From Pseudobutyrivibrio ruminis AD2017 (GTDB lineage: Bacteria > Bacillota > Clostridia > Lachnospirales > Lachnospiraceae), in assembly GCF_000424305.1 (NCBI RefSeq), contig NZ_AUJQ01000010.1, positions 1 to 64,000 of the forward strand: a stretch of DNA of 64,000 nt. Reading direction: 5' to 3'. Both the position numbers and the translations under genes were made by a program. Below the pieces are notes generated by a model that saw nothing but the letters and a program-made list of their open reading frames with translations, was not told the origin of the DNA and made no database searches. Each line of letters opens with the position of its first letter. Position 1 is the first letter of the stretch. Of this stretch, positions 256 through 20,784 are shown one piece after another.

Positions 256-301
256 GCCGTTAAGGAAAAGGTGTTGTCAACGGAAAAGGAGGTCTCAGTT
301 A

Positions 302-3690: not shown

Positions 3691-5099
3691 TGATTGGATT
3701 CTTACCTGAGTTATACCCTGACGAGCTTATATATAGTCTATTTGCAAGATATTATGCCTATTCTGGTTATGCTGCGTATATAGATGCTGCTCATGACATT
3801 TATAGCAATTGCAGAACTAGACCTGTTCCAGAATTTATTAATTCCATAAATGAATGTGTAAAAGGATATCTACTTAAAAGTCAAACGATGGAGGAACTGG
3901 TTGAGAATCATACCATGTTTCCTGCATATTCTAGGTTTATCCCGTTAGACAGACGAAAAAAGGCATTTGAAGCCTTAGTTCATACAGAGGGGAATTACAA
4001 CAATTATTTATATATTCCAGTTAGGGAAATAAGAAATAAGTATTTAAGGTGGTGTCCAATTTGTGCGAAAGAAGACAGGGAAAATTATGGTGAAACTTAT
4101 TGGCATAGATGTCATCAAATTGATGGAGTAGATATATGTTATAAACATTATTGTCTGCTTTTTAACAGTTCAGTTTGCAAAGAAAAATCATCACCGATGT
4201 TGATATCAGCAGAATATGAGGTGCCTCAAGAAGCCAAAATTTACCCCTGTAAGGACGATTTGATTATTAGTCTTACAGATTATATAGTCCATGTTTTTAA
4301 TCGCCCAAATGACCTAAAATGCGACTATAACACTGGCTTGATATTAGCTGATAGGCTTGATACGAAAAAGTATCATTATGATTCCAGTTGGATGCGAAAG
4401 AATGAAGAAATCTACGAAGACTACTGTTCATTTTATAGAGATATGCCTGATAGCTTGATGAATATTGATACGATGAAAAAAATCTTTGGTGGTGGAATTG
4501 CTGCAATGAGGTATTTTTGCCAACTTGCGTTATTTGAAGATGTTAGTGAAGAAGAATTGTTTTTGCCAAATGTAAGCAGTCTACAGAGTAAAATCATATT
4601 TCAAAGAATTGCAAGAGAACTAAATGAACCTGAGGATGTGGTTATACGTATAGGATTAGCTGTTATTAAGGCATACTCATCATCTAATGAATTATCGAAA
4701 CAAACTGGGAGAAATAGAGCTAGGTGGGAGGACGTGGATTTAAAGCTTCTTCCAACCGTTAAAGAATGTACCAAAAAGCTGTACGGTCAAGGGGATGAGC
4801 GCCCTAAAAAGGTTACGATAAAGGCTGTATGTAGAACATTAAACTTACCTGATAAGCGATTTGACTATCTTCCAACCTGTAAGGCAGAAATAATGAGATG
4901 GCATGAGACACAAGAACACTATTGGGCAAGAGAGGTTCTATGGGCCTATAATAGGCTGAAAAATGGTAATGAAATCATTAATTGGAAAAAGATTAGAACA
5001 CTAACTAATATACGAAAAAACAACCTTGAAGCATGCTTAAAGGACTTGGAACAGATTGCCGATAAGGATACTTATATCTTCATATTAGAGTTACTGTAA
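3684..5099 (+). CDS. tniQ: TniQ/TnsD-type target-site selection protein
   Basis: TniQ/TnsD proteins recognise the insertion site and recruit TnsC. The N-terminus has the family signature GFLPELYPDELIYSLFARY. A zinc-ribbon set follows: C124, C127, H141, C143, H144, C152, H155. The 471-residue length is that of a TnsD-class protein, longer than minimal TniQ, so a sequence-specific C-terminal DNA-binding part is likely. That would suit insertion at a fixed chromosomal site. ATG 3684 has GGAGG at good spacing and overlaps tnsC. A terminator at 5,107 ends the operon. Confidence 0.88.
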   Translation: MLMIGFLPELYPDELIYSLFARYYAYSGYAAYIDAAHDIYSNCRTRPVPEFINSINECVKGYLLKSQTMEELVENHTMFPAYSRFIPLDRRKKAFEALVHTEGNYNNYLYIPVREIRNKYLRWCPICAKEDRENYGETYWHRCHQIDGVDICYKHYCLLFNSSVCKEKSSPMLISAEYEVPQEAKIYPCKDDLIISLTDYIVHVFNRPNDLKCDYNTGLILADRLDTKKYHYDSSWMRKNEEIYEDYCSFYRDMPDSLMNIDTMKKIFGGGIAAMRYFCQLALFEDVSEEELFLPNVSSLQSKIIFQRIARELNEPEDVVIRIGLAVIKAYSSSNELSKQTGRNRARWEDVDLKLLPTVKECTKKLYGQGDERPKKVTIKAVCRTLNLPDKRFDYLPTCKAEIMRWHETQEHYWAREVLWAYNRLKNGNEIINWKKIRTLTNIRKNNLEACLKDLEQIADKDTYIFILELL

Positions 5100-5106: not shown

Positions 5107-5128
5107 GAGTGGGGCATTTGCTCCACTC
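5107..5128. terminator. Bidirectional terminator between tniQ and the rep gene
   Basis: A nine-bp stem GAGTGGGGC/GCTCCACTC with ATTT loop lies between the converging tniQ and replication genes. One G-T wobble is present. An A-run precedes it, which gives a T-run on the minus strand. Confidence 0.75.
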
Positions 5129-6362
5129 ATATTAGATTATTGTAATTAGCTGACAGTTCTTGTTGTATAGCAGTATAATAAGCTTCGTAGATTGTAGAAA
5201 GGTTAACCAGATAAGTCCCAATTTTTTTATCCATAACGGGATTGTTGTTCGAATCTAGTATTATTCTACTCTTGGGAATAGTAATTGGACTTATGCCTAA
5301 ACTTTTTATATCTTTTAAATAGGTATTAAAAGTTGATTCAGTATAGGTGGTAGTTTTTCCTTGTTTGACTAAATCAAGTGATTTTTCAATACCGCCGTGT
5401 ATGTTAATAAAATAGATAAAATCTTTTAGTCGTTTTCGTTTTGAAGGTTTAAAATTAGGACACTCATCTATAATATTCCTTGCGGACTCTAATGTGAGGT
5501 GAATACCGGTACCAAGACGAGCATTTAAAGAAGAGGACAAGAAATAATGTTCAACTTCTGGAGTTGCCAAGTCTAGTATGTCTAGACCATTAAGACCTAA
5601 TTTTTCCTTTATATAATATAGTTTTCTTCTTTTAACTTGGCATTCAAATCTTAAAAAATCATATTTCTCATAATCCTTAGGTAAAGTTTTTTTATTTCTC
5701 ATAGCATAAGCCTTGTTATAAATATTTAGATTATAAGATTTGCATTTATAATATAGATATTTGGGGGTAGGTGGGATAATCTCATCTGAATCATACTCGA
5801 ATTTGTCATCTTTATTATTCTGAGTATTATCATTAGAATAGGTAGCAGACTCTAATTTAGGTATATAGTATCCTCTTTTTATGATATCTAGATATACATC
5901 ACAATTGTTCTTAATATCAAAGGCAAAATCGATTCTTTTAACTGTAAAAGTATTGGCATTGTACCACTTCTTTTGGGAATCAATATCATTTACATTTCTT
6001 AGGTTAGGGAATATCTCTAATGATGGGAGAATATCATAAATTTGAGATAAAATCTTATATGCTAAACATGATGAAAAATCGTATGTACATGATGAAAAGT
6101 TTTTATCTCCTCCAAACATCTGTAGAGGATTAATAATTAAAGAAATATTGTAATAATAAATTGAATTTGGATAATCAGGGGCTATTCTTTCTCGCTTTGT
6201 TTTTAACAACGTAATTCTGGAGAGACCTTTTTCTTTGTACATATAAGTAACATGGAAGCTACTATTGTATTTGTTAATCCTTTGTATACCTGACAATGAG
6301 TTATTTAGCTCATAGAAGTTTTTTGCGGTTATAGTTTTTGACAATTCAAAAGTGTGAATCAT
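5127..6362 (-). CDS. Phage/plasmid replication initiator (gene II/X-like)
   Basis: This 411-residue protein resembles rolling-circle initiators of the phage/plasmid replication II/X group. The segment KYDFLRFECQVKRRKL (about 235-250) and the downstream lysine-rich helical part are typical. The start has AGGAGGTGAT 11 bases upstream. It runs opposite to the tns operon and is followed upstream by a 290-bp non-coding stretch with a strong hairpin (6,443-6,476) that could be its origin. A replication gene is unusual in a Tn7-like element and suggests an integrated plasmid or phage component. The catalytic tyrosine cannot be assigned by eye. Confidence 0.6.
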   Translation of the reverse strand: MIHTFELSKTITAKNFYELNNSLSGIQRINKYNSSFHVTYMYKEKGLSRITLLKTKRERIAPDYPNSIYYYNISLIINPLQMFGGDKNFSSCTYDFSSCLAYKILSQIYDILPSLEIFPNLRNVNDIDSQKKWYNANTFTVKRIDFAFDIKNNCDVYLDIIKRGYYIPKLESATYSNDNTQNNKDDKFEYDSDEIIPPTPKYLYYKCKSYNLNIYNKAYAMRNKKTLPKDYEKYDFLRFECQVKRRKLYYIKEKLGLNGLDILDLATPEVEHYFLSSSLNARLGTGIHLTLESARNIIDECPNFKPSKRKRLKDFIYFINIHGGIEKSLDLVKQGKTTTYTESTFNTYLKDIKSLGISPITIPKSRIILDSNNNPVMDKKIGTYLVNLSTIYEAYYTAIQQELSANYNNLI

Positions 6363-6654: not shown

Positions 6655-6951
6655 ATGGCAACTACAGCAATTAAAGATACAAACTTCAACATGAGAATGA
6701 ACAAGCAGAAAAAGGTAAGCCTTGAAGATTTATATGGTAATTTGGGCATGACTTTAGCAGAAGCAGTAAATATATTTTTTGAAAAGTCACTAATGGTTGG
6801 TGGTATACCTTTTGATGTCAGAATGCCAAAGTATAATAAAGAGACAGAAGATGCAATGCAGGAAGCAAGAGACATCATTGCTGGAAAGGCACAAGCAAAA
6901 AGCTATTCTTCGGCTACAGAATTATTTGCTGAGCTTGATGAGGAAGAATGA
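6655..6951 (+). CDS. dinJ: RelB/DinJ family antitoxin
   Basis: This 98-residue antitoxin would neutralise YafQ and repress its own operon. Its N-terminal ribbon-helix-helix region carries the DinJ pattern NMRMNKQKK...LYGNLGMTLAEAVNIFFEKS (about 11-46), and the acidic C-terminus (TELFAELDEEE) should wrap the toxin. An AGGAGGT site lies upstream. The stop overlaps the toxin ATG by four bases. It would help keep the element in the cell. Confidence 0.9.
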   Translation: MATTAIKDTNFNMRMNKQKKVSLEDLYGNLGMTLAEAVNIFFEKSLMVGGIPFDVRMPKYNKETEDAMQEARDIIAGKAQAKSYSSATELFAELDEEE

Positions 6952-7229
6952 AATATACTTTAAAACCTACCACCAAATTTAAGAAGGACTATAAAAGGTG
7001 TAAAAAACGTGGCTACGATATGAAGCTTCTTGAGGATATAATCAATACTTTGCTTGAAGGCAAAGAGTTAGATTCCAAGTATTATGACCATCCTCTGCAT
7101 GGTAACTATGAAGGGTTCAATGAATGTCATATTTTGTCAGACTGGCTTTTAATTTACACCAAAAGTGAAACTGAATTAGTTCTTACTGCTACTAGAACAG
7201 GAACACATAGTGATGTATTTGACGAATAA
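6948..7229 (+). CDS. yafQ: YafQ-family mRNA interferase toxin
   Basis: This 93-residue RelE/ParE-superfamily toxin cuts mRNA on the ribosome. Family residues are visible: KYTLKPTTKFKKDYKRCKKRG at the start, DHPLHGNY (about 44-51), ECHILSDWLLIY (about 56-67) and the terminal RTGTHSDVF holding the catalytic histidine. It directly follows and overlaps dinJ, and a terminator follows at 7,228. All expected active-site positions seem intact, so the toxin is probably functional. Confidence 0.92.
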   Translation: MKYTLKPTTKFKKDYKRCKKRGYDMKLLEDIINTLLEGKELDSKYYDHPLHGNYEGFNECHILSDWLLIYTKSETELVLTATRTGTHSDVFDE

Positions 7230-7308: not shown

Positions 7309-7737
7309 TCATTTCTTACGAGCTTTAATTTTTGTAAATTCTATAATTTCTTTTTTATCTTCTATGCTAATTCTTTCGAAATAGAACAATAATTCCTTTT
7401 CTAAGTTATTTAGATGCTTGAGTTTATTGACATTACTAGGAGAATTGGTAAACTCAAGATATTTTTCAATTTCAACAGATTCTTCAGATGGTGCAGGAGC
7501 ATCAAAATAAGTATTTCTATCTAAACTGATAACGAGGTACATTAAATCGTCAATTGATATTTCATATAAACCAGCAAGTTTATATAGCATTTCTGAACTA
7601 GGTGTTCTTTTACCAGTTTCGTAGTGACTATATGTCTGTCTAACGATACCTAATGTTTCTGCTACATAATCCTGAGTGTACGAGTGTGCTTTTCTTAACT
7701 CCTTGAGTTTTGTTGCTAGACGATTACCTTCATTCAT
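7309..7737 (-). CDS. XRE-family transcriptional regulator
   Basis: This 142-residue protein has an N-terminal helix-turn-helix (LKELRKAHSYTQDYVAETLGI...YSHYETGKRTPSSEMLYKLAGLY, about residues 9-55) and a helical tail. ATG 7737 is chosen because AAAGGAG lies upstream; an in-frame ATG at 7,761 lacks a site. It is transcribed away from the chaperone/AAA operon, and three TTGTAGCG repeats fill the divergent gap. It is therefore the likely repressor of that operon, in the manner of element-borne control genes. Confidence 0.85.
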   Translation of the reverse strand: MNEGNRLATKLKELRKAHSYTQDYVAETLGIVRQTYSHYETGKRTPSSEMLYKLAGLYEISIDDLMYLVISLDRNTYFDAPAPSEESVEIEKYLEFTNSPSNVNKLKHLNNLEKELLFYFERISIEDKKEIIEFTKIKARKK

Positions 7738-7794
7738 AGTCTTATTCTCCTTTAGTAACATTTTAGTTAATTTTTTGTGAATAAATGCAACGCC

Positions 7795-7867
7795 TTGTAG
7801 CGTTTATAACTGAAAGATGTTATACTATTGTAGCGAAATCATATAATTGAATATACAATTTGTAGCG
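7795..7867. promoter_or_regulatory. Three TTGTAGCG operator-like repeats in the divergent promoter
   Basis: TTGTAGCG occurs at 7,795, 7,828 and 7,860, spaced 33 and 32 bp (three helical turns). A -10-like TATACT lies at 7,821, between the first two. The first copy is part of a short palindrome AACGC-N6-GCGTT. This lies between the XRE gene and the chaperone operon and is a probable binding region for the XRE protein. Confidence 0.6.
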
Positions 7868-7875: not shown

Positions 7876-8112
7876 ATGAATATTCAAGATGCTATTAATG
7901 ATGCTGTTGGTTATAAGCCATTAGCGATAAATACATTTAATGGGAAAGTAAAAAGTGTTTTCGAAGGACTGCCGGTTCATCATGTCAGTCCACATTACGT
8001 ACAGTCACACTTCAGAAAGGGAAAATATATTTCTGGATATTGGCGCGATGGCGATGGAGATACAAGAGTAGATACATTTATGGGTTACTATGCAAGAAAT
8101 CCGCGACGTTAG
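7876..8112 (+). CDS. Small basic protein heading the chaperone/AAA operon
   Basis: This 78-residue protein is not assigned to a family. Its C-terminal half (VHHVSPHYVQSHFRKGKY, then GYWRDGDGDTR) resembles the short His/Arg-rich repeats around phrases such as V..H.RKG.YV.GY.R found in small element-borne proteins. GGAGGG precedes the ATG. It is first in the operon, directly behind the TTGTAGCG region, and 20 bases before the AAA gene. It could be an adaptor or a regulator. Confidence 0.6.
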   Translation: MNIQDAINDAVGYKPLAINTFNGKVKSVFEGLPVHHVSPHYVQSHFRKGKYISGYWRDGDGDTRVDTFMGYYARNPRR

Positions 8113-8132
8113 CGGTATGTGGGGAGCATACA

Positions 8133-9197
8133 ATGAGAAGGAATGACATTAGTAACATCTCTTTAGGATTTTATGAAAAACAGTTTCAAATAAAGGGAAG
8201 GAACTGCTCAATTATTCTTGAGGATGCGCAATATGGAGATTATAAAGGGCAGAAGGAACTGTTGGATAAAACAATAGTTGATGACATGTTCAAAGACATA
8301 GCCAAGGTGCTAGCTAACAGCTGTACCAAATACAATGATATTCCATCGGTTGTAAGTATAAGCCATGGTAATGAAACAAAAGAAATAGATGTTAAAAAAG
8401 AACTGTACCAAGTTATGGAACCTGATGAAACCATAGATGAGGTTATTCTTTCAGATGAAGTGAAAAAGCAGATAGATATTGTTTTAGCTGCAATTAACAA
8501 TCAAAAAAAACTTATAGAAGAATGGGAATTATCTGGGTTTGGGTTAGATAATAGAGCATTGGTATTAAACTTTTATGGACCACCAGGAACCGGAAAGTCA
8601 AAATGTGCCAGGGCTATAGCAAATAAGCTTAATAGAAAGCTCATTCAGGTTAATTACAGTGAATTAGAATCAAAGTATGTAGGGGAGACGCCTAAGAATA
8701 TTACCAATGTGTTTCGTGAAGCGAAAGAAAATGATGCTGTTCTGGTTTTTGATGAAGCGGATTCCTTTTTAAGTAAAAGACTTACAAGTATCACTCAAGC
8801 AGCAGATTATGGTGTAAATATCACTAGAAGTGTAATGCTTATGGAACTGGAGAGATTTGAAGGTATTGTGGTATTTACAACAAATCTTATTGCCAACTAT
8901 GATACAGCATTTAAAAGGAGGATATTAGCCAGCATTAGATTTGAATTGCCAGATGTCAATGCAAGACTAAAAATATGGAAACTGCATCTTCATAAAATGC
9001 CGTTAAAAGATATTAGTGTGGAAGAACTGGCAGAAAAGTTTGAGGGGATTTCAGGAGCTGATATAAAGGACATCATATATTATGCAGCACTCATAGCATT
9101 ACAGGATAACAAAGAGCAGGTTGAGTTATTGGATTTTCAAAAGGCATACGAATATGTTGTTGCACGATATGATGTTGATAATGGTGAAGAAAAATGA
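8133..9197 (+). CDS. AAA+ ATPase of the chaperone cluster
   Basis: This 354-residue protein has a non-AAA N-terminal part (1-110) and one AAA+ module. It shows Walker A GPPGTGKSK (149-157), Walker B VLVFDEAD (203-210), the second region VVFTTNLIANYDTAFKRR with arginine finger candidates R262/R263, and a C-terminal lid (to 354). The pattern is closest to single-module FtsH/spastin-type ATPases that unfold or remodel proteins; no protease domain is fused. ATG 8133 is chosen for the GGGGAG site; a longer frame starting at 8,040 overlaps the upstream gene. Its stop overlaps the next start. Confidence 0.85.
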   Translation: MRRNDISNISLGFYEKQFQIKGRNCSIILEDAQYGDYKGQKELLDKTIVDDMFKDIAKVLANSCTKYNDIPSVVSISHGNETKEIDVKKELYQVMEPDETIDEVILSDEVKKQIDIVLAAINNQKKLIEEWELSGFGLDNRALVLNFYGPPGTGKSKCARAIANKLNRKLIQVNYSELESKYVGETPKNITNVFREAKENDAVLVFDEADSFLSKRLTSITQAADYGVNITRSVMLMELERFEGIVVFTTNLIANYDTAFKRRILASIRFELPDVNARLKIWKLHLHKMPLKDISVEELAEKFEGISGADIKDIIYYAALIALQDNKEQVELLDFQKAYEYVVARYDVDNGEEK

Positions 9198-9832
9198 TTA
9201 TTGGGAAGGCTGTAGATATATACAGAAAGCTTCAGATGGACATGATTGGAAAGCTCTCTGTAGAAAATGAAGACATTATTAATGAGTGCCCGTTTTTTGA
9301 TGAGGGGTATATAAGTGCTCAAATTGAACGTCTAAAAAAAGAGCATGAACGACTTCTTATAGAATTGAATGCATCTAAACAGGTAGATACTGAATATGAA
9401 ATAAAAAGAAGTGCCACATTAAACAATCAAATTAATGCTGTTGAAGTCAAAATAATACATTACGCTGTAAACAGTTTTTCAGCTTTACCTTTATGTAAAA
9501 AATTAGCGGATGGTAAGGGGTTAAAGATTGAAAAACTAATACTGGCTTTAGATGAATATAAAGCTGGAAAGATTGATAGCTCGCAAAAATTATTTGCAGA
9601 ATATTTTGGAAGCAGCAATATCGAAGCAGGTTATTTCTTAGGAAATAAAATATATGGTCACATACTAATAGAAGCTGGAAAAACGAGAGAAGGTTTGGCA
9701 CATTTGGAACATGCCGTTCAGCTACGAGTTAATGATATTGAACTTCTAGCTTGGCTGAAAGAGGTATATGAGACTCTTGATATGCGTTTTGAATCGGACA
9801 GAGTTGAGGAGGCAATGAAAATATTAGGATAG
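9194..9832 (+). CDS. Helical protein of the chaperone cluster, unknown
   Basis: The product has 212 residues. Residues 40-80 look coiled coil (RLKKEHERLLIELNASKQ). The C-terminal half (about 120-205) reads like two tetratricopeptide-like hairpins (ALDEYKAGKIDSSQKLFAEYFG..., EAGKTREGLAHLEHAVQL). The start overlaps the AAA stop in an ATGA arrangement, so the two proteins are probably made together. A scaffold or substrate adaptor for the AAA or Hsp70 partner is a reasonable guess. No catalytic motif is visible. Confidence 0.6.
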   Translation: MIIGKAVDIYRKLQMDMIGKLSVENEDIINECPFFDEGYISAQIERLKKEHERLLIELNASKQVDTEYEIKRSATLNNQINAVEVKIIHYAVNSFSALPLCKKLADGKGLKIEKLILALDEYKAGKIDSSQKLFAEYFGSSNIEAGYFLGNKIYGHILIEAGKTREGLAHLEHAVQLRVNDIELLAWLKEVYETLDMRFESDRVEEAMKILG

Positions 9833-9844
9833 GGGACTTCTTAT

Positions 9845-10621
9845 ATGATTAATAAATCAAATTATCAGCATGTTGGGACTGATGATGCCTTTAATAGTTA
9901 TAAGAAGGAAATAGGCATCGAAGGCGACATAGCAGACATATATAAATCAATTGAAGCAAAAATGAAGAAGCCAGATTTATTAGGTAAAACATTAAAGGTG
10001 TCAGAGCGGCAGTTTCAAGAAGTAAATAACATAGTTGATAGTATTGCTGTAAAGTTAAATATGGAAAAACCTGCTGTATATGTTTTCGAAGATTTTTTCT
10101 ATGGAATTGAAAGCTATGGTATGGGGGAATACTGGATTGAGATTTCGGCAAAAACAATAAGGGATTTCACTCCAAAGGAGTTAGAGTTTCTTTTTGCTAG
10201 AGAGTTTTACAAGATTAAAGATGAGGTCACATATCAAACAGCTTTAGTGAATCAACTAACAGAAATTTATGCGGCTGTTCCGACTGTTGGAACAATTATT
10301 AGTAAGGCTGCAAGAAACAAGTTTTACCATTGGTGTAGATTAGAAAATTATACAGCTGATAATTTTGCATATCTTTATTGTAAAGACTTAAGTGCTAGTA
10401 TTAATGCAATTGTAGCAATGGTACTAAACAGTAAAGCATTACTAGAGCAGGTGGATATGAGAGCTTTTGTTGAACAGGCATCAGAAATAACAAGATTAGA
10501 TGATACTGTTTACAATTATACGAAAGCAGATGAAATGATGCCTTATGCACCGATGCGAGTTGAAAGTTTAATAGCTTTTTCGGTTTCAAAAAGAGGAATG
10601 CAGGTCCGAAAGGAGTTTTAG
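9845..10621 (+). CDS. M48-like protein with lost metalloprotease motif
   Basis: The 258-residue protein follows the layout of small M48 peptidases: beta strands with PAVYVFEDFFYGI...YWIEIS, then FTPKELEFLFAREFYKIKDEV, where the helix normally carries HExxH. Here that segment is REFYK (119-123), so both zinc-binding histidines are missing. A later helical part includes YTADNFAYLYC, which resembles the E-x-x-x-D region of M48 (ENYTADNFA). It is probably a pseudo-protease used for binding. The stop codon directly abuts the next ATG. Confidence 0.6.
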   Translation: MINKSNYQHVGTDDAFNSYKKEIGIEGDIADIYKSIEAKMKKPDLLGKTLKVSERQFQEVNNIVDSIAVKLNMEKPAVYVFEDFFYGIESYGMGEYWIEISAKTIRDFTPKELEFLFAREFYKIKDEVTYQTALVNQLTEIYAAVPTVGTIISKAARNKFYHWCRLENYTADNFAYLYCKDLSASINAIVAMVLNSKALLEQVDMRAFVEQASEITRLDDTVYNYTKADEMMPYAPMRVESLIAFSVSKRGMQVRKEF

Positions 10622-10966
10622 ATGAGTTTAATATTAGCGGCAGCTGCTGTGGCAGCTTTAACAGTTTTGGCATATGCATATTGGGATAGGATAAAGCAAT
10701 GGATAGAAACGATTTTGGCGGATAGGGTGGAACGAGTTTTAGGATATGGTGCAAGAAAACGTCTTCATCATGTTGTATCTATAGCAGATAAAACAGCAAG
10801 AGGCATCAGAAACCGCGTTTATGTTTATGTAAATAAAATAACTGGTAAAGGTTATGAAAAAATGGAAGAAAAAAGATTAGATGATATTTCTGTAGTTGAA
10901 GAAGACATTATCAAGGAAATCGATGAGAAGGGGCCAATAATACAAGAATTTAAATATGAGGAGTAG
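10622..10966 (+). CDS. Membrane-anchored small protein of the chaperone cluster
   Basis: This 114-residue protein starts with a hydrophobic helix (residues 2-20, LILAAAAVAALTVLAYAYW) followed by a basic amphipathic stretch (RVERVLGYGARKRLHHVV) and an acidic tail. No known family was recognised. It sits with no gap after the M48-like gene and seven bases before the GrpE-like gene. Together with the J protein's C-terminal membrane helices it suggests that the whole complex works at the membrane. Confidence 0.6.
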   Translation: MSLILAAAAVAALTVLAYAYWDRIKQWIETILADRVERVLGYGARKRLHHVVSIADKTARGIRNRVYVYVNKITGKGYEKMEEKRLDDISVVEEDIIKEIDEKGPIIQEFKYEE

Positions 10967-10972
10967 AGTGAC

Positions 10973-11512
10973 GTGAGAAGCATATTTAATAAAAAGGACG
11001 ATAACTCGGATAATCAGGTAGTAGATAAAGAACCATTCGATGCAAAAGAATTGATTGAAAAGAATGATGCCATATTACATAAAATCGAAGAGCTTGCAGA
11101 GAAGGTAGATTTTATTGACAAAAATAATAAGAAGTTTTTAATGACTGCGTCTATGAATAAGTTAGATGTACAGGAGAAGAAGATTAAGAACATGAAACTG
11201 TCAGTAATCGATATTCTTGATAATGTTGACGTATTGCTTAATCAGGTGGAGAAATTAGAGAATGATACGTTAAATGAAGGTATTGGTATGATATCAAAAG
11301 GCATTTTAGATAGTCTTTCAGATATAGACTTGGAAGTAATCCCAACAGCTGTTGGAGATGTCTTTAATCCTGCTATACATAACTGTATAGAAACAGGGCA
11401 TAAGGAAGATATAGCAGAAGATACTATTTTAGCGATTAATAAGAAGGGCTATAAAGATTTAGAAAATGGATTAGTTATTCGAACTACAGAAGTTGTTGTT
11501 AATAAAAAGTAG
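10973..11512 (+). CDS. GrpE-like nucleotide exchange factor, divergent
   Basis: The 179-residue product has the GrpE plan: a long alpha-helix (about 22-110) and a C-terminal beta-wing. Wing signatures are VGDVFNPAIHNCIETG (127-142) and ILAINKKGYKDLENGLVIRTTEVVV (152-176), which match the GrpE endings (FDP..HEAV, V...GY...RV.RPA.V.V). GrpE releases ADP from Hsp70. Start is GTG with GAGGAG nine bases upstream. It precedes the Hsp70 gene by 14 bases, so it surely serves that protein rather than the housekeeping DnaK. Confidence 0.8.
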   Translation: MRSIFNKKDDNSDNQVVDKEPFDAKELIEKNDAILHKIEELAEKVDFIDKNNKKFLMTASMNKLDVQEKKIKNMKLSVIDILDNVDVLLNQVEKLENDTLNEGIGMISKGILDSLSDIDLEVIPTAVGDVFNPAIHNCIETGHKEDIAEDTILAINKKGYKDLENGLVIRTTEVVVNKK

Positions 11513-11526
11513 AGGGGTTAACTAAG

Positions 11527-13251
11527 ATGGGAAGAATAGTCGGTATTGACTTAGGTACAACCACATCGGAAATTGCATATATAAATAATGGAGAACCAGA
11601 AGTGATAAAGAATGGCTATTCATCTATTACACCTTCTGTTGTTGGCTTAGATAAAAATTATAACGTTATTGTCGGAGAAAAAGCCAAAGACCAAATATTA
11701 AATGCAAGTGACAGAACTGTTGTAGAAGTTAAAAGGAAGATGGGGACGAACGACCTTGTTATTTTAGGTGGAAAAAAGTTTACCCCTACCCAGATATCAT
11801 CGGAAATATTAAAAGAATTAAAGCGAGTTGGCGAACAGTATCTACAGGAGGAAATAACAGAAGCGGTTATAACAGTTCCTGCAAATTTTAATGATGCTCA
11901 AAGGCAAGCCACAAAAGAAGCTGGTGAAAAAGCTGGATTAATAGTAAATCAAATTATCAATGAGCCTACTGCTGCTGCGTTAGCTTTTGGAATTAATAAC
12001 CTTGGTACAGAAGGTAATGTCCTAGTTTATGATATTGGTGGAGGAACTTTTGATGTAACAGTACTAGAAATGATTGAGGGTTCATTGGATGTAAGGGCAA
12101 GCCGTGGTATTAATAGACTTGGTGGTAAAGACTTTGATGAAAAAATAGTTGAAGAAATCATATCAGCATTAAAAAGTAATTACTCTTTTGATTTATATAA
12201 TGATGTCCAAGGAAATGAGAAACTAAATATATTAGGAAGAATAAAAGCAGAAGCTGAGAAAACAAAAATTGCGTTAAGTTCTATACAGGTTGTAGATATT
12301 CAGTTGCCATTTCTTGCACAAAAAGATGGTGAAATCATTAATTTTGAGATGGAAATCTCAAGAAGTAGGTTTGATGAGCTTATTTCAGATTATGTTTCTC
12401 AAACAATGGACACAGTGAATGAAGCCTTGCAGGCGGCAAAACTCACTGCTGCTGACATTGATATTGTGCTTCCTATTGGTGGTTCAAGCAGAGTTCCTGC
12501 AATATATGAAAATTTAAAAAACATCTTTGGTAATAAGATAAGAGGTAAAGTCAATCCAGACGAGGCAGTTGCTTTAGGAGCCGCTGTTCAGGCTGGAATT
12601 AATAAAAATGAAATAGTTGGAAATAATTCAATAGCAATATTTGATGTATGTAATCATTCTCTGGGTACAGAAGTAGTAAGAGATACTGCTAACGGTTATA
12701 AGGATGGTTTTTATGACAGGCTTATTCTTAGAGATACTCATTTGCCATTTTCAAGAACGAATCGCTACAATACAACGAGTGATTATCAAGAGAGCGTAAT
12801 AGTTGGAATATATCAAGGGGAGGATAATCTAGTAGAAAACAATATAAAATTAGGAGAGTTGGAGGTAAATGGCATCCCAGCAAATAAAGCAGGAGAGGAA
12901 TGCGTTGATGTAACATTTAAATACAATATTAATGGCATTTTGGAAGTATCAGTTATTGTAGTTAGTACAGGTAAAGAAGCATCAACTACTATTAACATGT
13001 TTAATTATGATGCGCCTAAAACGAAATCCGAGGAAAAAATTGATGATTTTATGAGTGGTGCATGGACTCAAGCTAGTGAGATACAAACGACTGTAATGCT
13101 ATATAAAAGCCGTAGGTCTAATCTTCCAGAAGAAGCTCAAAAACAGGCAGATGCCTTAATAAAAAAATTAAAAGAAGCAGTTATAAATAATGATTATGAC
13201 AAAATGGATTACTATGATGACAATTTAACAGCGTTGCTGTTTGAATACTAG
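11527..13251 (+). CDS. Hsp70 (DnaK-like) chaperone, element-borne
   Basis: This is a full-length but divergent Hsp70 of 574 residues (DnaK is about 600-640). Nucleotide-binding motifs are intact: GIDLGTTTSE (6-15), VPANFNDAQRQATKEAGEKAGL (117-138), NEPTAAALAFG (145-155), DIGGGTFDV (169-177), GGSSRVP (318-324) and NPDEAVALGAA (343-353). The substrate domain (about 375-500) and a short helical lid follow. The usual linker LLLDV is replaced by AIFDV. It lies between GrpE-like and J-like genes, giving a self-contained Hsp70 machine distinct from the chromosomal dnaK. Confidence 0.9.
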   Translation: MGRIVGIDLGTTTSEIAYINNGEPEVIKNGYSSITPSVVGLDKNYNVIVGEKAKDQILNASDRTVVEVKRKMGTNDLVILGGKKFTPTQISSEILKELKRVGEQYLQEEITEAVITVPANFNDAQRQATKEAGEKAGLIVNQIINEPTAAALAFGINNLGTEGNVLVYDIGGGTFDVTVLEMIEGSLDVRASRGINRLGGKDFDEKIVEEIISALKSNYSFDLYNDVQGNEKLNILGRIKAEAEKTKIALSSIQVVDIQLPFLAQKDGEIINFEMEISRSRFDELISDYVSQTMDTVNEALQAAKLTAADIDIVLPIGGSSRVPAIYENLKNIFGNKIRGKVNPDEAVALGAAVQAGINKNEIVGNNSIAIFDVCNHSLGTEVVRDTANGYKDGFYDRLILRDTHLPFSRTNRYNTTSDYQESVIVGIYQGEDNLVENNIKLGELEVNGIPANKAGEECVDVTFKYNINGILEVSVIVVSTGKEASTTINMFNYDAPKTKSEEKIDDFMSGAWTQASEIQTTVMLYKSRRSNLPEEAQKQADALIKKLKEAVINNDYDKMDYYDDNLTALLFEY

Positions 13252-13268
13252 GTGAGGGGCGCCTATCT

Positions 13269-14969
13269 ATGGGCAATGAGAATTTCTACGAGATACTTGG
13301 TTTGAATTCAAGTGGAGCAGCTACACAGGATGAAATAAAACGAGCTTATGTAAAAAAACGTAAAGAATACCAAGGAAATGAGGAGAAAACCTCGTTATTA
13401 AATGAAGCTTATTCTGTCCTTGCTGATGAGGAAAAACGAAGGAACTATGATTATGATATAGAGAAGTCGATAGTCATGGAAGAATTGGATAATGTAAAAA
13501 ATTTCGAGGAAAGAAAAGAGGCTTTATGTAAGCTAAAAAAGGTATGTGAAAAGCATTTAGGTCACGATGATGAAAGAGACTTATCAGAATATCAAACATT
13601 AATTGAAATTGAAAGGTCTATTGGAAATGATGACGTTGTCCCATATTTAGATAAAATGTGGCAAATACTAGACGGAAAAATGGAGGTACCAGAACATTAC
13701 GAATGGTATGAGTATGTAGGAAATAATTATTATCTTTATGATGATGTTGATGGGGCTATAAAAGCCTATTTTCAGATTTATAAAGTAGCTGTCCCTAAAT
13801 ACGAGATTACAGAAAAATTAATATCTCTGTTATGTAATGAAAAGAAGAAGCCAAAAACTGCTATAAAAATACTTAAGGATTGTATTGATAGAAGTGATAT
13901 TCAAAATCATAAATGCTTTTATCTATGCAAAGCGTATGAAGTAGTAGTAAATCTACAGGACAAAACATTTGATAAAGTTAAGCAGGTATTAAAAAGCAAG
14001 ATATCTGTAGTGGTTAGTGCAGACCAGCCGGATGAGTTGACATTACGTGCTTTGTGTGACCTTTTTATATGGATGGCCTATGCATTGGAAAATAAGTCTA
14101 TTGCAGCATATCATGACTTAGAACAGATTTATTTGTCTAAAGGTACAGATAATCCAGACCTAAAAAATCTGTACAGTATGATAAAGCAGTTTGAGGTTGT
14201 AATTGCAAACAATAAGCGACATGAATGTATCGAATTAATGCAGGAAGATTCGCTAACTGATAAGATGCGGCAAAAAATCGAGGATTATTTAATCAACGAT
14301 GCAGATAGTGTAATGGACTCGTTGAATTACATCAAAGAAAATGCACCGTTGCTTGTTGAACAAGAAAAAGAAGCATACGATTTTATTGATAGTGTAGTTA
14401 CTCAACAATATAAGGCACTAAAAGAATATTCACAGTTTATTAAGGATTCTCATTTTGGAGGTGCAATTAAAACTATACTTAGAAGGTATCTGTTCAAAGA
14501 TGTTATTAGGTATGCAACGATTGAAGATGATTTTAACAAGGCTATTAATCAGTTTTATGATGATAATAACTTGAACCAAACAAGGGAAGAAATCAGGATG
14601 CTGGATAGATTGTATCCTAACTGTTACAAATTACTTGCTGAGTATCTTTTTGATGGGCAATCTGTAGTTGAGTTGTTGGGGGATGATGAGTTAGGGCAAA
14701 CAGATTCTTCACGTTCAGTGGCAAATAATAAAGCAATTGTGGATTATCCTCATGCAAGAAAAGGATACGAAAATCGACCATTCTATAGTGGTTTTCTTGA
14801 AATGATAATAATATTAGTGGCAACTGTTATATTTCCACCGACTTTACCTATAGTGTTAGTGATTAAGACTTTTAATAGATATACAAAAATTATTATAAAG
14901 GTTGCAATTGGAATTATAGTGGCTGTTGCATTATTGCTGATTATTTCTTCAATCAGTAGTCTGTTTTGA
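13269..14969 (+). CDS. Membrane-anchored J-domain-like protein without HPD
   Basis: The 566-residue protein begins with a J-domain fold (NFYEILGL at 5-12, DEIKRAYVKKRKEYQG, LLNEAYSVLADEEKRRNYDYD to about 63), but the essential HPD is replaced by QGN (35-37), so it should not stimulate ATPase in the classical way. A long helical middle (70-480) resembles TPR-like repeats. Two hydrophobic helices lie in the last 62 residues (about 510-530 and 542-564), placing it in the membrane with the J region in the cytoplasm. It closes the operon 18 bases after the Hsp70 gene. Confidence 0.8.
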   Translation: MGNENFYEILGLNSSGAATQDEIKRAYVKKRKEYQGNEEKTSLLNEAYSVLADEEKRRNYDYDIEKSIVMEELDNVKNFEERKEALCKLKKVCEKHLGHDDERDLSEYQTLIEIERSIGNDDVVPYLDKMWQILDGKMEVPEHYEWYEYVGNNYYLYDDVDGAIKAYFQIYKVAVPKYEITEKLISLLCNEKKKPKTAIKILKDCIDRSDIQNHKCFYLCKAYEVVVNLQDKTFDKVKQVLKSKISVVVSADQPDELTLRALCDLFIWMAYALENKSIAAYHDLEQIYLSKGTDNPDLKNLYSMIKQFEVVIANNKRHECIELMQEDSLTDKMRQKIEDYLINDADSVMDSLNYIKENAPLLVEQEKEAYDFIDSVVTQQYKALKEYSQFIKDSHFGGAIKTILRRYLFKDVIRYATIEDDFNKAINQFYDDNNLNQTREEIRMLDRLYPNCYKLLAEYLFDGQSVVELLGDDELGQTDSSRSVANNKAIVDYPHARKGYENRPFYSGFLEMIIILVATVIFPPTLPIVLVIKTFNRYTKIIIKVAIGIIVAVALLLIISSISSLF

Positions 14970-15059: not shown

Positions 15060-15875
15060 ATGCAAAAGAAAGTTTTTAGTTTATTTTTAGCACTATCAAC
15101 TGTATTTATGTTATTTTCTAATTCAAGTGTATCTAAAGCTTATAATTTAGAAGATTCTTCAAATTATGAATATTATAGACCTTATGTTGTACATGGTACA
15201 GATTATTGGCTTTATGAACAACTTTTAAAAGGTGGTTATGTTGAAGAAGCACAACAATATTATAGAGATTGGTTTCCTCAATATGAAGAAGAATATGAAT
15301 TTCTAAAATTTGATGATGGAACTCCTATGCCTGGAATGCAATGCGTATCGGGTAATTATGTAATTGTACCTAAAGATTCTATTTGCGCTAAAAGAATTAT
15401 TAATGGTGAGGTAGGAGATAAATCTAGACTAGGTCAATTAGATATGACAGGAGATTATATATTCTATCCAGGTCTAGGTGTACCAGATTCTGTTCCTGTA
15501 ACATATGAATCTACACCCATAACAGATACTACTTCTGAGGTACAACAAAATCAGATAGCTCCATCTTCAGAGACAGGTGTAGTCCAACAACCATCTCAGG
15601 TGGCAAATGAGACTAATGCAGACGTAGTAAATGGTGAAGGCTACAGTATCACTTTAAAATCAAAAGGTGCTACAGTGAAATTTGATGCTAAGAATAACTA
15701 TAGTGTAAAGGTAGAAGGCGTCGGTTTCCAGTATTATCAATTGTATTCTATAGCTGGAGATACGATTAACATTTCACATTTAATTCCTAATTTACAATAC
15801 AGTATTACTGTAGGCGTTAATCCAAATTACGAGGGAACACAGTGGAAAGCACCAATAACAATTACAGCAAAATAA
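15060..15875 (+). CDS. Secreted protein, unknown
   Basis: A 271-residue protein with a clear signal peptide (KKVFSLFLALSTVFMLFSNSSVSKA, cleavage near residue 27). A tyrosine-rich globular part follows (about 30-135), then a Thr/Ser/Gln-rich linker (145-185) and a C-terminal beta-rich domain (190-271) that looks fibronectin-III-like. AAGGAGGG precedes the ATG. It starts 90 bases after the J-protein gene and may or may not share its transcript. No enzyme motif was recognised. Confidence 0.75.
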   Translation: MQKKVFSLFLALSTVFMLFSNSSVSKAYNLEDSSNYEYYRPYVVHGTDYWLYEQLLKGGYVEEAQQYYRDWFPQYEEEYEFLKFDDGTPMPGMQCVSGNYVIVPKDSICAKRIINGEVGDKSRLGQLDMTGDYIFYPGLGVPDSVPVTYESTPITDTTSEVQQNQIAPSSETGVVQQPSQVANETNADVVNGEGYSITLKSKGATVKFDAKNNYSVKVEGVGFQYYQLYSIAGDTINISHLIPNLQYSITVGVNPNYEGTQWKAPITITAK

Positions 15876-16180: not shown

Positions 16181-16223
16181 TGCGGCAAGTTAGTAGTTTT
16201 TGATTTTTGAAAGGAGCTTAGGT

Positions 16224-16931
16224 ATGAGTATTTTGAAAATTGATGATTCAAATGTAAAAGGATTTGATGTGGATTTAATTTGTGACTTTGAAAGAGTTAA
16301 GAATCAGGTGTGTTTTAGACTGATAAATCTAGACAGGAATAAAGATTATCTCAAGGACAAGCCATATGTTATCGTTCAGGATTTAGCTGCGGTATTCTTT
16401 GTTGTGCTTAATCCAGAGTCAGTTGATTCAGTGGTAGTAGTTGATAATAAACTGATGGATTTATGGAAAGTTGATGATTTAGAGGCTTTATTTGAAATAG
16501 CCAAAGAGAATTCTTCTAGAATATTGAGGGCATCTGTAAATGATATTTTCCTGGAGATTCTTATTTATTTGGACCAAGTCAATAATGAGGATATAGCTAA
16601 AATATGTGATTACGATATTTTTGATATGCAGGCAAATAAAGAATCCAAAATCTTTGTAGCGACAAACAGTAAGAAGTTATTCGGAAGTGCTGTATTGATG
16701 TATGATGGACTGCTAGCTAAGTTTTCTCAAATAGTAGGTGGAGACTTTTTTATAATTCCATGCTCAGTCCATGAACTTATATTTGTGCCTTGCATAGAGG
16801 CTGATAGTAATGTTAAGGAACTTCAAGAGATGGTTGCGCATGTAAATGCCACCGAAATATCTGAGAAAGATTTTTTGAGCAATAATGTTTATAAATATAA
16901 TTCACTAAGTGACTCTTTGGAAATTATTTAA
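16224..16931 (+). CDS. DUF5688-like protein
   Basis: The 235-residue product has the layout of DUF5688 proteins, common in Lachnospiraceae conjugative elements and prophage-like islands: central NSKKLFGSAVLMYDGLLAKFSQIVGGDFFIIPCSVHELIFVP (about 152-195), then ELQEMVAHVNATEI. Function is unknown. ATG 16224 is chosen for the AAAGGAG site; an upstream TTG at 16,200 in the same frame lacks one. Gene context is the recombination block. Confidence 0.75.
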   Translation: MSILKIDDSNVKGFDVDLICDFERVKNQVCFRLINLDRNKDYLKDKPYVIVQDLAAVFFVVLNPESVDSVVVVDNKLMDLWKVDDLEALFEIAKENSSRILRASVNDIFLEILIYLDQVNNEDIAKICDYDIFDMQANKESKIFVATNSKKLFGSAVLMYDGLLAKFSQIVGGDFFIIPCSVHELIFVPCIEADSNVKELQEMVAHVNATEISEKDFLSNNVYKYNSLSDSLEII

Positions 16932-16969
16932 TTCCAGAGAGCTTTTTTATTTTCAGGAGGTGATAACAG

Positions 16970-17158
16970 ATGTGTATGTTGCAAGGATGTAGGGTTACAC
17001 CAGAAATGCCGGGGATCTGTAGAAATTGTTCGCTGTATCTAAATACTTGTATGCCAGTGATTGATAATGGGTTCCTGTTTGGAGAGTGTGACAATGATTT
17101 TTGTGTGTACTGTCCATGCTATGAAGAGTGTGGAGAGTATAGTCAGGAGGTATTTTAA
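16970..17158 (+). CDS. Cysteine-rich small protein
   Basis: A 62-residue protein with 11 cysteines in CxxC-like and C-x2-C clusters (GCRVTPEMPGICRNCSLYLNTC, FCVYCPCYEEC). It could bind one or two zinc ions or an iron-sulfur cluster. AGGAGGTGA precedes the start. The stop lies two bases before the ArdC-like start, so it is in the same operon. No family was recognised. Confidence 0.65.
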   Translation: MCMLQGCRVTPEMPGICRNCSLYLNTCMPVIDNGFLFGECDNDFCVYCPCYEECGEYSQEVF

Positions 17159-17160
17159 CA

Positions 17161-18024
17161 ATGAATAAGAATCAAGAAAAAATAAAAGCAGCCCTCAAGA
17201 AGATAGATGAGAGTTTAGAGACAATATCTACTGATGAGGACTGGCTTAAGTATTTGTACTTTCAGTCTAAATTCTACAACTACTCATTTGGGAATACAAT
17301 GCTCATATATTTCCAGAATAGAAATGCATCGTATGTTAAGGGCTATAAATCTTGGAATGATTTAGGCAGGTTTGTTCGCAAGGGTGCAAAAGGGCTTGCA
17401 ATATTAGCACCATATATTAGAAAGCAGGAATTAGTTAAGGATGATGAAGATGTAGAAAGAAAGGAGGTGAGAAAGGTTCTTACAGGATTTAGGATTGTGT
17501 ATGTTTATGACATTGCAGATACTGAAGGTGATGATAGTAAGCTCCCAGTTCTTGTTACTGGTTTAGCAGGTAATAGTGCAGAGGAAAAGAAAATTTATGA
17601 AAGTTTGTACAAAATAATATCAAGCAAGCATATTGTGCAGGAGGTGACAGGAACTGCATCTAAAGGCAGTTTCAATTTGGAAACAAAAGTTATTTCAGTT
17701 AGAGCAGATATGGATTATATACAAAAAGTTAAAACTATTCTACATGAGTATAGTCATCTAATTGATTTTGAAATGAATCCAGATGAGAGTATCAGTAGAA
17801 ATAGAAGGGAACTAGTGGCTGAATCATGTGCTTTTGTTGTGTCTGCAAGACTTGGACTTGATACCAGCAGATACAGCATGAGTTACATCCAGTCTTGGTT
17901 AAAAGATAAGGATGAACTAAGAATTATTGCAGATACGGTTCAAAAAATATCATACAAAATTATCACAGAGATAGCAGAGTCTTCAGATTCTGCTTTTTCT
18001 ATTTTAGGTGAAAGTGAGGAATAG
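17161..18024 (+). CDS. ArdC-like antirestriction protein with metallopeptidase domain
   Basis: This 287-residue protein joins an N-terminal ssDNA-binding-like domain (LYFQSKFYNYSFGNTMLIYFQN...GYKSWNDLGRFVRKGAKGLAIL, about 31-82) to a C-terminal zinc metallopeptidase with HEYSH (195-199) and E221 in RRELVAES. ArdC of broad-range plasmids protects entering DNA from restriction. All metal ligands are present. Presence beside exonuclease and annealase genes suggests an early-entry module of a plasmid or conjugative ancestor. Confidence 0.85.
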   Translation: MNKNQEKIKAALKKIDESLETISTDEDWLKYLYFQSKFYNYSFGNTMLIYFQNRNASYVKGYKSWNDLGRFVRKGAKGLAILAPYIRKQELVKDDEDVERKEVRKVLTGFRIVYVYDIADTEGDDSKLPVLVTGLAGNSAEEKKIYESLYKIISSKHIVQEVTGTASKGSFNLETKVISVRADMDYIQKVKTILHEYSHLIDFEMNPDESISRNRRELVAESCAFVVSARLGLDTSRYSMSYIQSWLKDKDELRIIADTVQKISYKIITEIAESSDSAFSILGESEE

Positions 18025-18027
18025 AAT

Positions 18028-18963
18028 ATGAATGCAAATATATTAGTAGAAACAGAGAATCTGTCAAAAGTAGAATGGCTAGCATATCGAAGAAAAGGTA
18101 TCGGTGGTTCAGATGTTAGTAGTCTTTTAGGAATTAATAAGTGGAAGTCAGAGCTTGAACTATGGCTAGATAAAACAGGACAGAGTGAAGACTCTACAAC
18201 TGATAATGAGTCAATGATGTGGGGAACAATATTAGAACCAGTAGTTAGAAATCATTTTGCCAAAGTGACTAATAAGAAGGTTGTTGAAGTTAAGGCTATG
18301 CTACAGCATCCTAGGTACTCATTTATGCTTGCTGATGTAGATGGAGTTACTGTTGATGATGAAGGTAATCCAGCTATTCTTGAGATTAAAACAGCCTCAG
18401 AGTACAAGCGAAATGAGTGGGAATCAGAAGTCCCAACTTACTATCAGACACAGGTACAACATTATCTTTTGGTTACAGGCTTAAAGAAAGCGTATGTTGC
18501 TGTACTGATAGGAGGAAATACCTTCAAAATATATGAAATAGATGCTGATGAAACAATCCATAATATGCTCATAAAAGTAGAGGAAAACTTTTGGAACAAG
18601 GTAGTAAACGGTATTAGACCTGAAATAGATGGTTCAGATGCAGCAAAGAACCTGCTAGATGGTTTATATTCTGGTGGTTTGAAAGAAGAATTCACTTTGC
18701 CAGAAGTAGCAGAAGAATATGTAAATATGTACCTTGAGGCAAGTGCTAAAGAGGGTGATGCTAAAGCAAAGAAACAAGAAGCAGCAAACCATCTTAAAGA
18801 ATTGATGGGAAATCATGAAGTTTGTAGTTGCTCAAACCATAGTATTACATGGAAAACTGTGATATCTGAAAGATTAGATTCTAAAGAATTAAAAGCTGAT
18901 GAGCCAGACCTTTATGACAAGTATACCAAGACCAGTGAAAGTAGAAGATTTATGGTTAAGTAA
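18028..18963 (+). CDS. YqaJ-type viral recombinase / lambda-exonuclease-like nuclease
   Basis: The 311-residue protein has the YqaJ signature EWLAYRRKGIGGSDVSSLLG (about 14-33), with W.SELELWLDKTG after it. The nuclease core carries MMWGTILEP..R, FMLADVDG and AILEIKTASEY, giving the PD-(D/E)XK acids and lysine (D..EIK). These 5'-3' exonucleases make 3' overhangs for an annealase. The next gene is a probable annealase, 14 bases downstream, so the two form a recombination pair. Confidence 0.88.
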   Translation: MNANILVETENLSKVEWLAYRRKGIGGSDVSSLLGINKWKSELELWLDKTGQSEDSTTDNESMMWGTILEPVVRNHFAKVTNKKVVEVKAMLQHPRYSFMLADVDGVTVDDEGNPAILEIKTASEYKRNEWESEVPTYYQTQVQHYLLVTGLKKAYVAVLIGGNTFKIYEIDADETIHNMLIKVEENFWNKVVNGIRPEIDGSDAAKNLLDGLYSGGLKEEFTLPEVAEEYVNMYLEASAKEGDAKAKKQEAANHLKELMGNHEVCSCSNHSITWKTVISERLDSKELKADEPDLYDKYTKTSESRRFMVK

Positions 18964-18977
18964 AGGAGTGATTATAT

Positions 18978-19802
18978 ATGAATAAGAAAATAGATTTAAA
19001 AGAATTATTGGAAAGCAAGATGAATACACTAGAGCCAAAGCAAGATACAGCAGTTATAGATGCAGCAAATAGTTTTGTGCCTAAAAATCTTATGTTTAGT
19101 TCTGAAAGTGGCGAGTTTAAACCAGAGACTAGACCTGTAACTGCTTCAAGTGTAAGAAATATAACCGTTGAAGAGGCTAAATTATTTGATGATGAGATGA
19201 ATAGATTCATTGATACAGTTCTTGTCTCAGGAAGTGACTATGGTGTAATTCCACATTGTAATAAACCAACATTACTCAAGTCTGGAGCTGAAAAGATTAT
19301 GAACTATTTAGGACTTATTGCAAGAACAGAAATAGTTAATCGTGTTGAAGACTATGCCCAAGGATTCTTTAGCTATGAGGTCAAAGTGTTTCTGATTGAT
19401 TATAACGGAGTAGTTAAAGGCGAAGGAATTGCAACTGCAAATACCAAAGAAAGCAAGTATGCTAAGCAAAATGGTTTCTCAGTTCAAAATGTTGTTCTTA
19501 AAATGGCAAAGAAGAGAGCTCTTGTAGATGGAATACTTAATGTTGGAAACCTGAGTGCAAGATTCACTCAGGATATGGAAGATTTGAGTATTGGACAAGA
19601 CAAAGAACAATCATATAGTAGCTCTACTGTTAAGCCAGCAAGTACGAAGCAGATTAAGTATTTAGAATCATTGATGGCACAGAATAATACATCAGCAGAA
19701 GTCATGAATAAATATTTGAAATCAAATTATGGTGTTGAAGACTATAATAAACTTTCAGCTTTTCAGATTTCTGAAATCATTGAGAAGTACATCAAATCAT
19801 AA
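18978..19802 (+). CDS. Probable single-strand annealing protein
   Basis: This 274-residue protein contains the phage/plasmid pattern SGSDYGVIPHCNKPTLLKSGAEKIMNYLGL (about 85-114) and a KMAKKRALVDGIL helix near 175-187, a region shared by Rad52/Erf-like annealases and relatives. A C-terminal helical tail (215-274, KQIKYLESLMAQNN...) resembles small DNA-binding end domains seen in such proteins. The pairing with a YqaJ exonuclease strongly supports an annealase role. The exact family (Erf, Rad52 or other) cannot be fixed by eye. Confidence 0.65.
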   Translation: MNKKIDLKELLESKMNTLEPKQDTAVIDAANSFVPKNLMFSSESGEFKPETRPVTASSVRNITVEEAKLFDDEMNRFIDTVLVSGSDYGVIPHCNKPTLLKSGAEKIMNYLGLIARTEIVNRVEDYAQGFFSYEVKVFLIDYNGVVKGEGIATANTKESKYAKQNGFSVQNVVLKMAKKRALVDGILNVGNLSARFTQDMEDLSIGQDKEQSYSSSTVKPASTKQIKYLESLMAQNNTSAEVMNKYLKSNYGVEDYNKLSAFQISEIIEKYIKS

Positions 19803-20628: not shown

Positions 20629-20721
20629 ATTAATATAACTAGTGTTTCAGTAGTTTTACCTTGAAGCTTAGGGATGAAGATATTATAATGGGTGGCACAA
20701 GGTCTACGATACTATGTTAAC

Positions 20722-20763: not shown

Positions 20764-20784
20764 AGTATTAATTGAATATAAAAT

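Follow-up and report, generated by a model that had tools for sequence, protein, structure and literature searches.

An eight-gene operon in a Tn7-like element of Pseudobutyrivibrio ruminis joins a rare AAA+ core to a divergent GrpE-Hsp70-J trio

What might an operon that combines an AAA+ ATPase with its own GrpE, Hsp70 and J proteins do inside a Tn7-like transposable element? We addressed this question for an eight-gene operon at positions 7876-14969 of a 64,000-nt stretch of Pseudobutyrivibrio ruminis AD2017 (assembly GCF_000424305.1, contig NZ_AUJQ01000010.1, positions 1 to 64,000; this whole stretch is called the window). Sequence comparison indicates that the operon is a composite of a four-gene core and a chaperone trio, likely a modular AAA+ machine with a slot for a sensor. 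Tentatively, and with somewhat less than even confidence, we read it as a membrane-associated AAA+ remodelling machine whose client would be chosen by an exchangeable module. Phage defence and control of membrane proteins are our leading guesses for its job.

The eight genes are on the same (+) strand, downstream of a divergent gene for an XRE-type helix-turn-helix (HTH) regulator (7309-7761, - strand; HTH_3 match at 7e-16). Pfam placed AAA and lid, GrpE, HSP70 and DnaJ domains on four of the eight proteins, and the other four had no match above the cut-offs. The first gene (7876-8112) encodes a 78-aa accessory protein with no Pfam match. It is followed by a classical AAA+ ATPase with a single AAA domain (8133-9197; AAA 4e-27 plus lid), a 212-aa protein with a C-terminal TPR (9194-9832; a profile of six sequences matched designed TPR chains at 6e-10), a 258-aa pseudo-M48 protein that aligns with M48 peptidases and has lost HExxH and with it the zinc site (9845-10621), and a 114-aa protein with one N-terminal transmembrane (TM) segment, predicted at residues 1-19 (10622-10966; six sequences aligned). 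The last three genes encode a divergent GrpE with a GTG start (10973-11512; 7e-19), a short Hsp70 of 574 aa (11527-13251; 3e-134) and a J-like protein (13269-14969; DnaJ 2.5e-11) with a middle region lacking Pfam matches and two predicted C-terminal TM segments. An earlier sequence-only reading of this DNA had proposed a compact eight-gene operon in a Tn7-like element, with a pseudo-M48 protein, a membrane-anchored J protein and XRE control. The coordinates, gene order, tns genes and element ends bear this out, as do the lost HExxH, the TM segments of the J protein and the XRE gene, which faces away from the operon.

The same gene order was found in a related element of a second species (genome G003, locus L010). 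Protein identity between the two elements was 79% for Hsp70, 70% for the pseudo-M48 protein, 68-69% for the 78-aa protein (51% to its counterpart at locus L040), 66% for the AAA protein, 56% each for the 212-aa and 114-aa proteins, 44% for GrpE and 40% for the J protein, with 74% for the XRE regulator. In the six operon genes with computable values, nonsynonymous divergence (dN) was lower than synonymous divergence (dS), though the ratios are rough because dS is high (1.7-4.0). For the 212-aa and 114-aa genes dS was saturated, and third-position differences were the most frequent. The window contains seven copies of TTGTAGCG, three of them (7795, 7828 and 7860; 7795-7867, + strand) within 73 bases in the gap between the XRE gene and the operon, and L010 has one exact copy at the matching place. 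These sites are possible operators, an assignment that is suggestive only. The gene after the J gene (15060-15875) is fast-evolving, with 25% identity to its L010 counterpart and a dN/dS near 0.9 from a doubtful alignment; by eye, its start resembles a signal peptide.

Searches beyond this pair of species divided the operon in two. The AAA, TPR-type, pseudo-M48 and one-TM genes occur in that order at all nine distinct loci found, eight in Bacillota genomes and one on a viral contig: the window, L010, L011, L017 (Clostridium carboxidivorans), L018 (Ureibacillus manganicus), L019 (a Herbinix metagenome-assembled genome), L022 (the viral contig), L040 and L041. Thus the eight-gene order whose conservation the earlier reading had suggested searching for is kept in the elements of two species but is not one conserved unit; the four-gene core is found at nine loci, two of them with GrpE-Hsp70-J. 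The 78-aa type of protein precedes the AAA gene in three of the nine (window, L010 and L040), and in the other six an 82-89 aa protein precedes the pseudo-M48 gene instead. We considered the latter as a relative of the 78-aa protein and found no clear kinship.

The core is rare in every set of genomes searched. Among 195 relatives, a search with the pseudo-M48 protein gave eight matches, three of which (the own genome, G003 and G136) had an adjoining AAA gene; the other five were all read and had none. Corresponding searches gave two matches in 391 genomes of the class (the own genome has the core, and L021 has no AAA gene over the 3.7 kb read), two in 397 genomes of the family, both with the core, and four in 398 genomes of the phylum (two with the core, L042 with no AAA neighbour, and G1124, locus L039, left out of the reading). 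The class, family and phylum sets all include the own genome and partly overlap. A scan of the genome collection with two short peptide patterns gave four loci, one of them the G136 contig again, and L011 and L020, which are the same contig, were counted once. The M48 matches L012-L016, which keep HExxH and have no AAA neighbour, were dropped as core members, as was L042. Of eight viral-contig loci matching the AAA protein, three were read (L022-L024), and of these L022 alone contains the core. Scanning viral contigs with the TM protein recovered the same contig. It also returned L074, where the similarity covers a small part of a 756-aa protein encoded among phage-like genes and is therefore probably due to chance. 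Viral-contig scans with the pseudo-M48 and J proteins found no relative, and at E 0.001 neither phage records searched with the pseudo-M48 protein nor plasmid records searched with the J protein gave a match. The sole plasmid M48 match (Bernardetia) has HExxH and no AAA-gene match nearby.

What follows the core varies. The GrpE-Hsp70-J trio occupies the partner position only in the two Tn7-like copies; at the other seven loci, tblastn at E 0.01 found no match to GrpE, Hsp70 or J in the sequence stretches searched. L011 and L018 have a TM-SH3_3 protein as partner, with a sub-threshold MORN match in L018. The partner is a TPR-TM-Ig-like protein in L019 and an ankyrin protein in L041. The L017 partner has no Pfam match, and two open reading frames (ORFs) related to it lie nearby. 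L022 and L040 each have a partner with three TM segments, which in L040 is divergently placed.

Walker A and B, the aromatic pore loop, sensor 1 and the Arg-finger motifs are intact in the AAA protein at all nine loci. The profile is closest to CDC48/p97 chains and the model closest to proteasomal Rpt/PAN chains. By its motifs the protein belongs with the classical AAA+ proteins (p97/PAN clade), and it has the full motif set of an active ring ATPase. The pseudo-M48 protein keeps an M48 fold of the HtpX/Ste24 kind, yet HExxH with the third-ligand Glu is absent from all nine core copies, compared with its presence in 6/6 comparison M48 proteins. The AAA protein also has more distant relatives, with 39-45% identity. 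One adjoins a CHAT-domain gene on a Streptomyces plasmid, another is found at the end of a Moraxella phage record, and a third (39% identity) is on a Planktothrix plasmid, near an Hsp70-TPR gene, a HerA-type gene and small proteins. The row of genes on the Planktothrix plasmid (L034, 1876-9635) runs from an Hsp70-TPR protein through five small proteins, all but one with a TM segment, to the AAA relative and a DUF87/HerA-type protein. Membership of the 114-aa family found no support for the small proteins beside the Planktothrix and Streptomyces AAA genes (hhalign probability 1.3% and 0.4%), and membership is plausible for the one beside the Moraxella AAA gene (85%, E 6e-6).

The chaperone trio departs from the usual Hsp70 system at the contact through which a J protein acts. 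Passages of PMC13012618 describe the D35-R167 contact as critical in DnaK and report that Y145A raises ATPase activity with or without DnaJ, and part of PMC8215388 describes D35 of the J domain as bonding R167 and Q378 of DnaK. Both known J proteins of this type (window and L010) have YQG in place of HPD. At the positions equivalent to R167 and Y145, assigned by motif in the operon proteins, both operon Hsp70 copies have Gln, versus Arg in 15/15 others compared, and Asn, versus Tyr in 14/15 and Trp in one. The ATP-binding motifs DLGTT, DIGGGT and GGSS are conserved. We infer that the J partner probably does not trigger the operon Hsp70 as J proteins usually do. The loss of HPD and R167 represents one evolutionary event rather than two, because both species belong to one lineage. 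The trio had been described as a "complete but divergent Hsp70 machine": GrpE, Hsp70 and J genes are indeed all present, but "complete" fails at HPD. Compared with the housekeeping DnaK-DnaJ-GrpE set of the same genome, the operon set has the same domain order and ATP-binding motifs, whereas its Hsp70 is 41% identical with a shorter C-terminus (574 versus 632 aa), and the HPD, R167 and Y145 equivalents are lost.

Possible kin of the trio were found elsewhere in the phylum. Hsp70 matches better than E 1e-122 were present in 7/299 genomes, the own and six others, and in five of the six (L056-L060) a 572-579 aa Hsp70 adjoins a GrpE-like gene and a J-TPR-SEC-C gene. Pfam detected SEC-C, TPR and DnaJ in all five of these J proteins; a small TPR-type gene follows the Hsp70 gene in four of the loci (Pfam was run on two), and BLAST at E 0.01 matched two of the five GrpE-like proteins to the operon GrpE, the rest being called by alignment. 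These operons resemble the trio in linking GrpE-like, Hsp70 and J genes. They differ in having PPD (four) or PPE (one) at the HPD position, in keeping R167 and Y145, in lacking a TM segment in 5/5 J proteins, and in lacking matches to the operon AAA and pseudo-M48 proteins in the stretches read. In a 17-sequence Hsp70 tree, the operon pair stands beside the five with modest support (82/78), nine DnaK-type rows separate (100/99) and the sixth match, a 635-aa Hsp70 of genome G1071, lies on a long branch between. The only mobile-element gene noticed near these trios, by inspection and a partial Pfam scan, was a DDE transposase-like ORF in L056.

These features suggest how such a machine could work. 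The TM protein and the J-like protein would hold the complex at the membrane, the J-like protein serving as a tether and not as an ATPase trigger, and the dead M48 fold may be an adaptor that grips clients and passes them on to the AAA pore. No J signal would be needed for the Hsp70 to cycle, because Y145 loss raises ATPase activity in DnaK and the R167/HPD contact is gone, and the state of the Hsp70 would therefore report client load. Infection or envelope damage could flood the Hsp70 with clients, causing it to release the tether and leave the AAA ring free to work on a target in the membrane or of the phage. Until the client flood, the XRE protein would keep the operon low. In its most specific form this is a predicted modular immune machine of a class not described before, in which a p97-like AAA ring bound to the membrane works with a dead M48 adaptor and a sensor that plugs into a slot, and whose Tn7-like version senses client load through an Hsp70 uncoupled from J triggering by the matched loss of HPD and R167. 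We regard that form as unlikely, and the exact switch mechanism is a guess.

Several observations weigh against the exchangeable-module machine or its immune form. Complex formation, ring assembly and topology are predictions. At L011, L018 and L019 the contig stops no more than about 1.1 kb past the partner gene, and additional genes could be missing there. Only two elements of the same genus, a single lineage, combine trio and core, so that the pairing may be one chance event. Because the operon Hsp70 keeps the Q378 and P419 equivalents, it could still bind in a J-like way to some extent. Its identity is 40-43% to the five short Hsp70s, 41% to the DnaK of its own genome and 43.5% to the 635-aa Hsp70 of G1071; because plain identity is equally far from all, kinship with the short-Hsp70 family is a tentative lead. 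No system-level PADLOC match was obtained for ten window proteins, as anticipated by the earlier reading, which knew of no named defence system with this gene set. By inspection, the neighbours of L018, L040 and L041 look like ordinary metabolism.

On the side of defence we counted the transposon cargo, the patchy presence, the XRE gene, the variable partner and the neighbours of L022. On this 114-kb viral contig (9944-19457), the core module ends 26 bases before MkoA-like (9e-107) and MkoB-like (6e-16) genes; Mokosh is a separate helicase/PLD pair that lies directly 3´ of the core there and outside the operon of the window. At the level of single window proteins, PADLOC gave matches to IetA and TRIP13 profiles for the AAA protein, to several HTH profiles for the XRE protein and to one profile, at 0.004, for the Hsp70. 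Ten further proteins from L022, L017, L018, L011 and L040 gave the two Mokosh matches, one LeoA match in L017 (3e-13) and none for the other seven at 1e-5. Passages of PMC12169576 state that bNACHT25 needs DnaJ, meaning that bacterial chaperones can join phage sensing, and part of PMC12255303 describes an M48-type peptidase gene in a defence island of enteropathogenic Escherichia coli, whose product is predicted to be a zinc peptidase and whose gene set is another one. In open-licence papers, preprints excluded, we recognised none describing the gene set of the operon, and the terms Hsp70, DnaK and chaperone are absent from the main text of Benler et al. 2021 on Tn7-like cargo. We put a conflict or defence role at about even.

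The same parts might instead serve quality control of the envelope and its proteins, the machine extracting or refolding misfolded membrane proteins in the manner of p97 or FtsH-HtpX with no anti-phage role. We consider this somewhat unlikely. The p97/PAN type of the AAA protein, the HtpX/Ste24-like fold, the presence of GrpE and Hsp70, partners with SH3_3 or Ig-like domains beyond the TM segment, the three loci among apparently metabolic genes and the small operons of possible Hsp70 kin in other Bacillota, with a single transposase-like ORF noticed, would all fit. However, a core that is rare (3/195 relatives), patchy and borne by transposons at two loci fits less well, as do a variable partner slot, a copy beside Mokosh genes and a dead protease that cannot itself degrade.

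The carrier could itself be the client. Within the window contig, the Tn7-like element extends from 1 to 21010, and TnsA-like, TnsB-like, TnsC/TniB-like and TniQ/TnsD-like genes occupy 191-5099 on the + strand. Their Pfam matches were Tn7_TnsA-like_N at 24.8 bits (just under the cut-off of 26.5), Mu-transpos_C at 22.0 bits (just over the cut-off of 21.7), TniB at 2e-12 and TniQ at 4e-16. The left end was read from contig C2 of the same genome (G000:C2), which probably adjoins the window contig: at the end of C2, the stop codon of guaA (GMP synthase by NCBIfam, 754 bits) is followed by AATATTA and, across the junction, TGTTAACGG. At the right junction the element closes with TTTAGACA, its terminal ACA at 21010, and the sequence continues with TATTATTAG. 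The element is therefore inserted just after guaA, with TGT/ACA ends and the 5-bp duplication TATTA flanking both sides. A 5-bp target duplication and TGT/ACA ends are typical of Tn7. The related element of G003 also lies beside guaA, with the operon genes and several flanking genes in the same order. The operon is patchy (2/29 genomes of the genus), and a megablast search of the element against plasmids gave no match. ClpX remodels Mu transposition complexes, and an AAA/Hsp70 set could likewise remodel transposase or replication complexes of the element. Both Hsp70-bearing copies lie in Tn7-like elements with the same neighbours. This role is nevertheless improbable, as the four tns proteins of the window had no tblastn match (E 0.01) in the stretches searched at the other seven core loci, three of them short contigs, and TM segments fit a job on DNA complexes badly.

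A near-palindromic 296-bp unit forms the right end of the element (20715-21010), and its first and last parts recur at the left end in the same direction; direct repeats of the unit flank the element (window 1-93 and 20715-21010; L070, L048, L049). The unit itself starts with TGT and ends with ACA, and has paired GGATAA...TTGCCC-type sites and a long central hairpin; the G003 element has a like unit of different sequence at both ends. Other genes of the element include one for a 411-aa protein (5127-6362, - strand) with no Pfam match at 0.001 and 31% identity to the same-place protein in L010, a RelB/YafQ-type toxin-antitoxin pair (6655-7229) with no match in the G003 stretches read, and, at 16200-19802, DUF5688, ArdC-N and YqaJ genes plus a 274-aa gene with no Pfam or NCBIfam match, in an order kept in L010. 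In the G003 copy, a resolvase-type gene (Pfam 7e-23) lies close to the XRE gene.

Among named systems, the best PADLOC match of the AAA protein was an IetA profile (1e-38). The protein scores 122.8 bits against an equivalog cut-off of 510 (NCBIfam NF042959), however, and no serine protease was found among ten operon-region proteins (Pfam at E<=1, best 25 matches for the AAA protein; PADLOC at E<=0.1). Of the published concepts, the GAP1-N2 GTPase conflict systems come nearest through their HSP70/GrpE/DnaJ theme. Sections of Kaur et al. 2020 (PMC7159879) describe HSP70, GrpE and DnaJ-domain genes adjoining an NTPase core, membrane and wall-binding parts, and firmicutes among the hosts, all points in common with the operon. 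The operon could thus be a variant in which the GTPase has been swapped for an AAA ATPase, and a GTPase-like gene, the LeoA match, does lie about 8 kb from the core in L017. We think this quite unlikely. As described in those sections, the systems have a GTPase with GAP1 where the operon has AAA+, and an FNIII-repeat protein typically fused to DnaJ or TPR, whereas Pfam found no GTPase family and no fn3 domain in 24 element ORFs, with no fn3 match on the J or TPR-type protein even at E<=1. The term M48 does not occur in the main text of PMC7159879. On the features compared, then, the operon is a member of neither the IetAS nor the GAP1-N2 GTPase systems, differing from the latter in its NTPase and in the FNIII-DnaJ protein. 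It can be placed broadly among conflict-type systems based on an NTPase and chaperones, with a putative defence role.

Finally, that the operon is decaying or neutral cargo, its lost HPD, R167 and zinc site being those of a dying operon, is very improbable: three separate active or contact sites are degenerate and the J and GrpE proteins evolve fast (40% and 44% identity), but dN stays below dS in the six computable genes, the ATP motifs of AAA and Hsp70 are intact, the zinc-site loss is common to all nine loci and YQG is present in both J proteins.

Collectively, these comparisons define the core module as a compact unit with nine known loci, seven of which have no chaperone match in the sequence searched. 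An Hsp70 set that is mobile and dedicated to an AAA machine would represent a new design, and the matched loss of HPD and R167 is an experiment of nature on whether an Hsp70 can function when its J partner is unable to trigger it.

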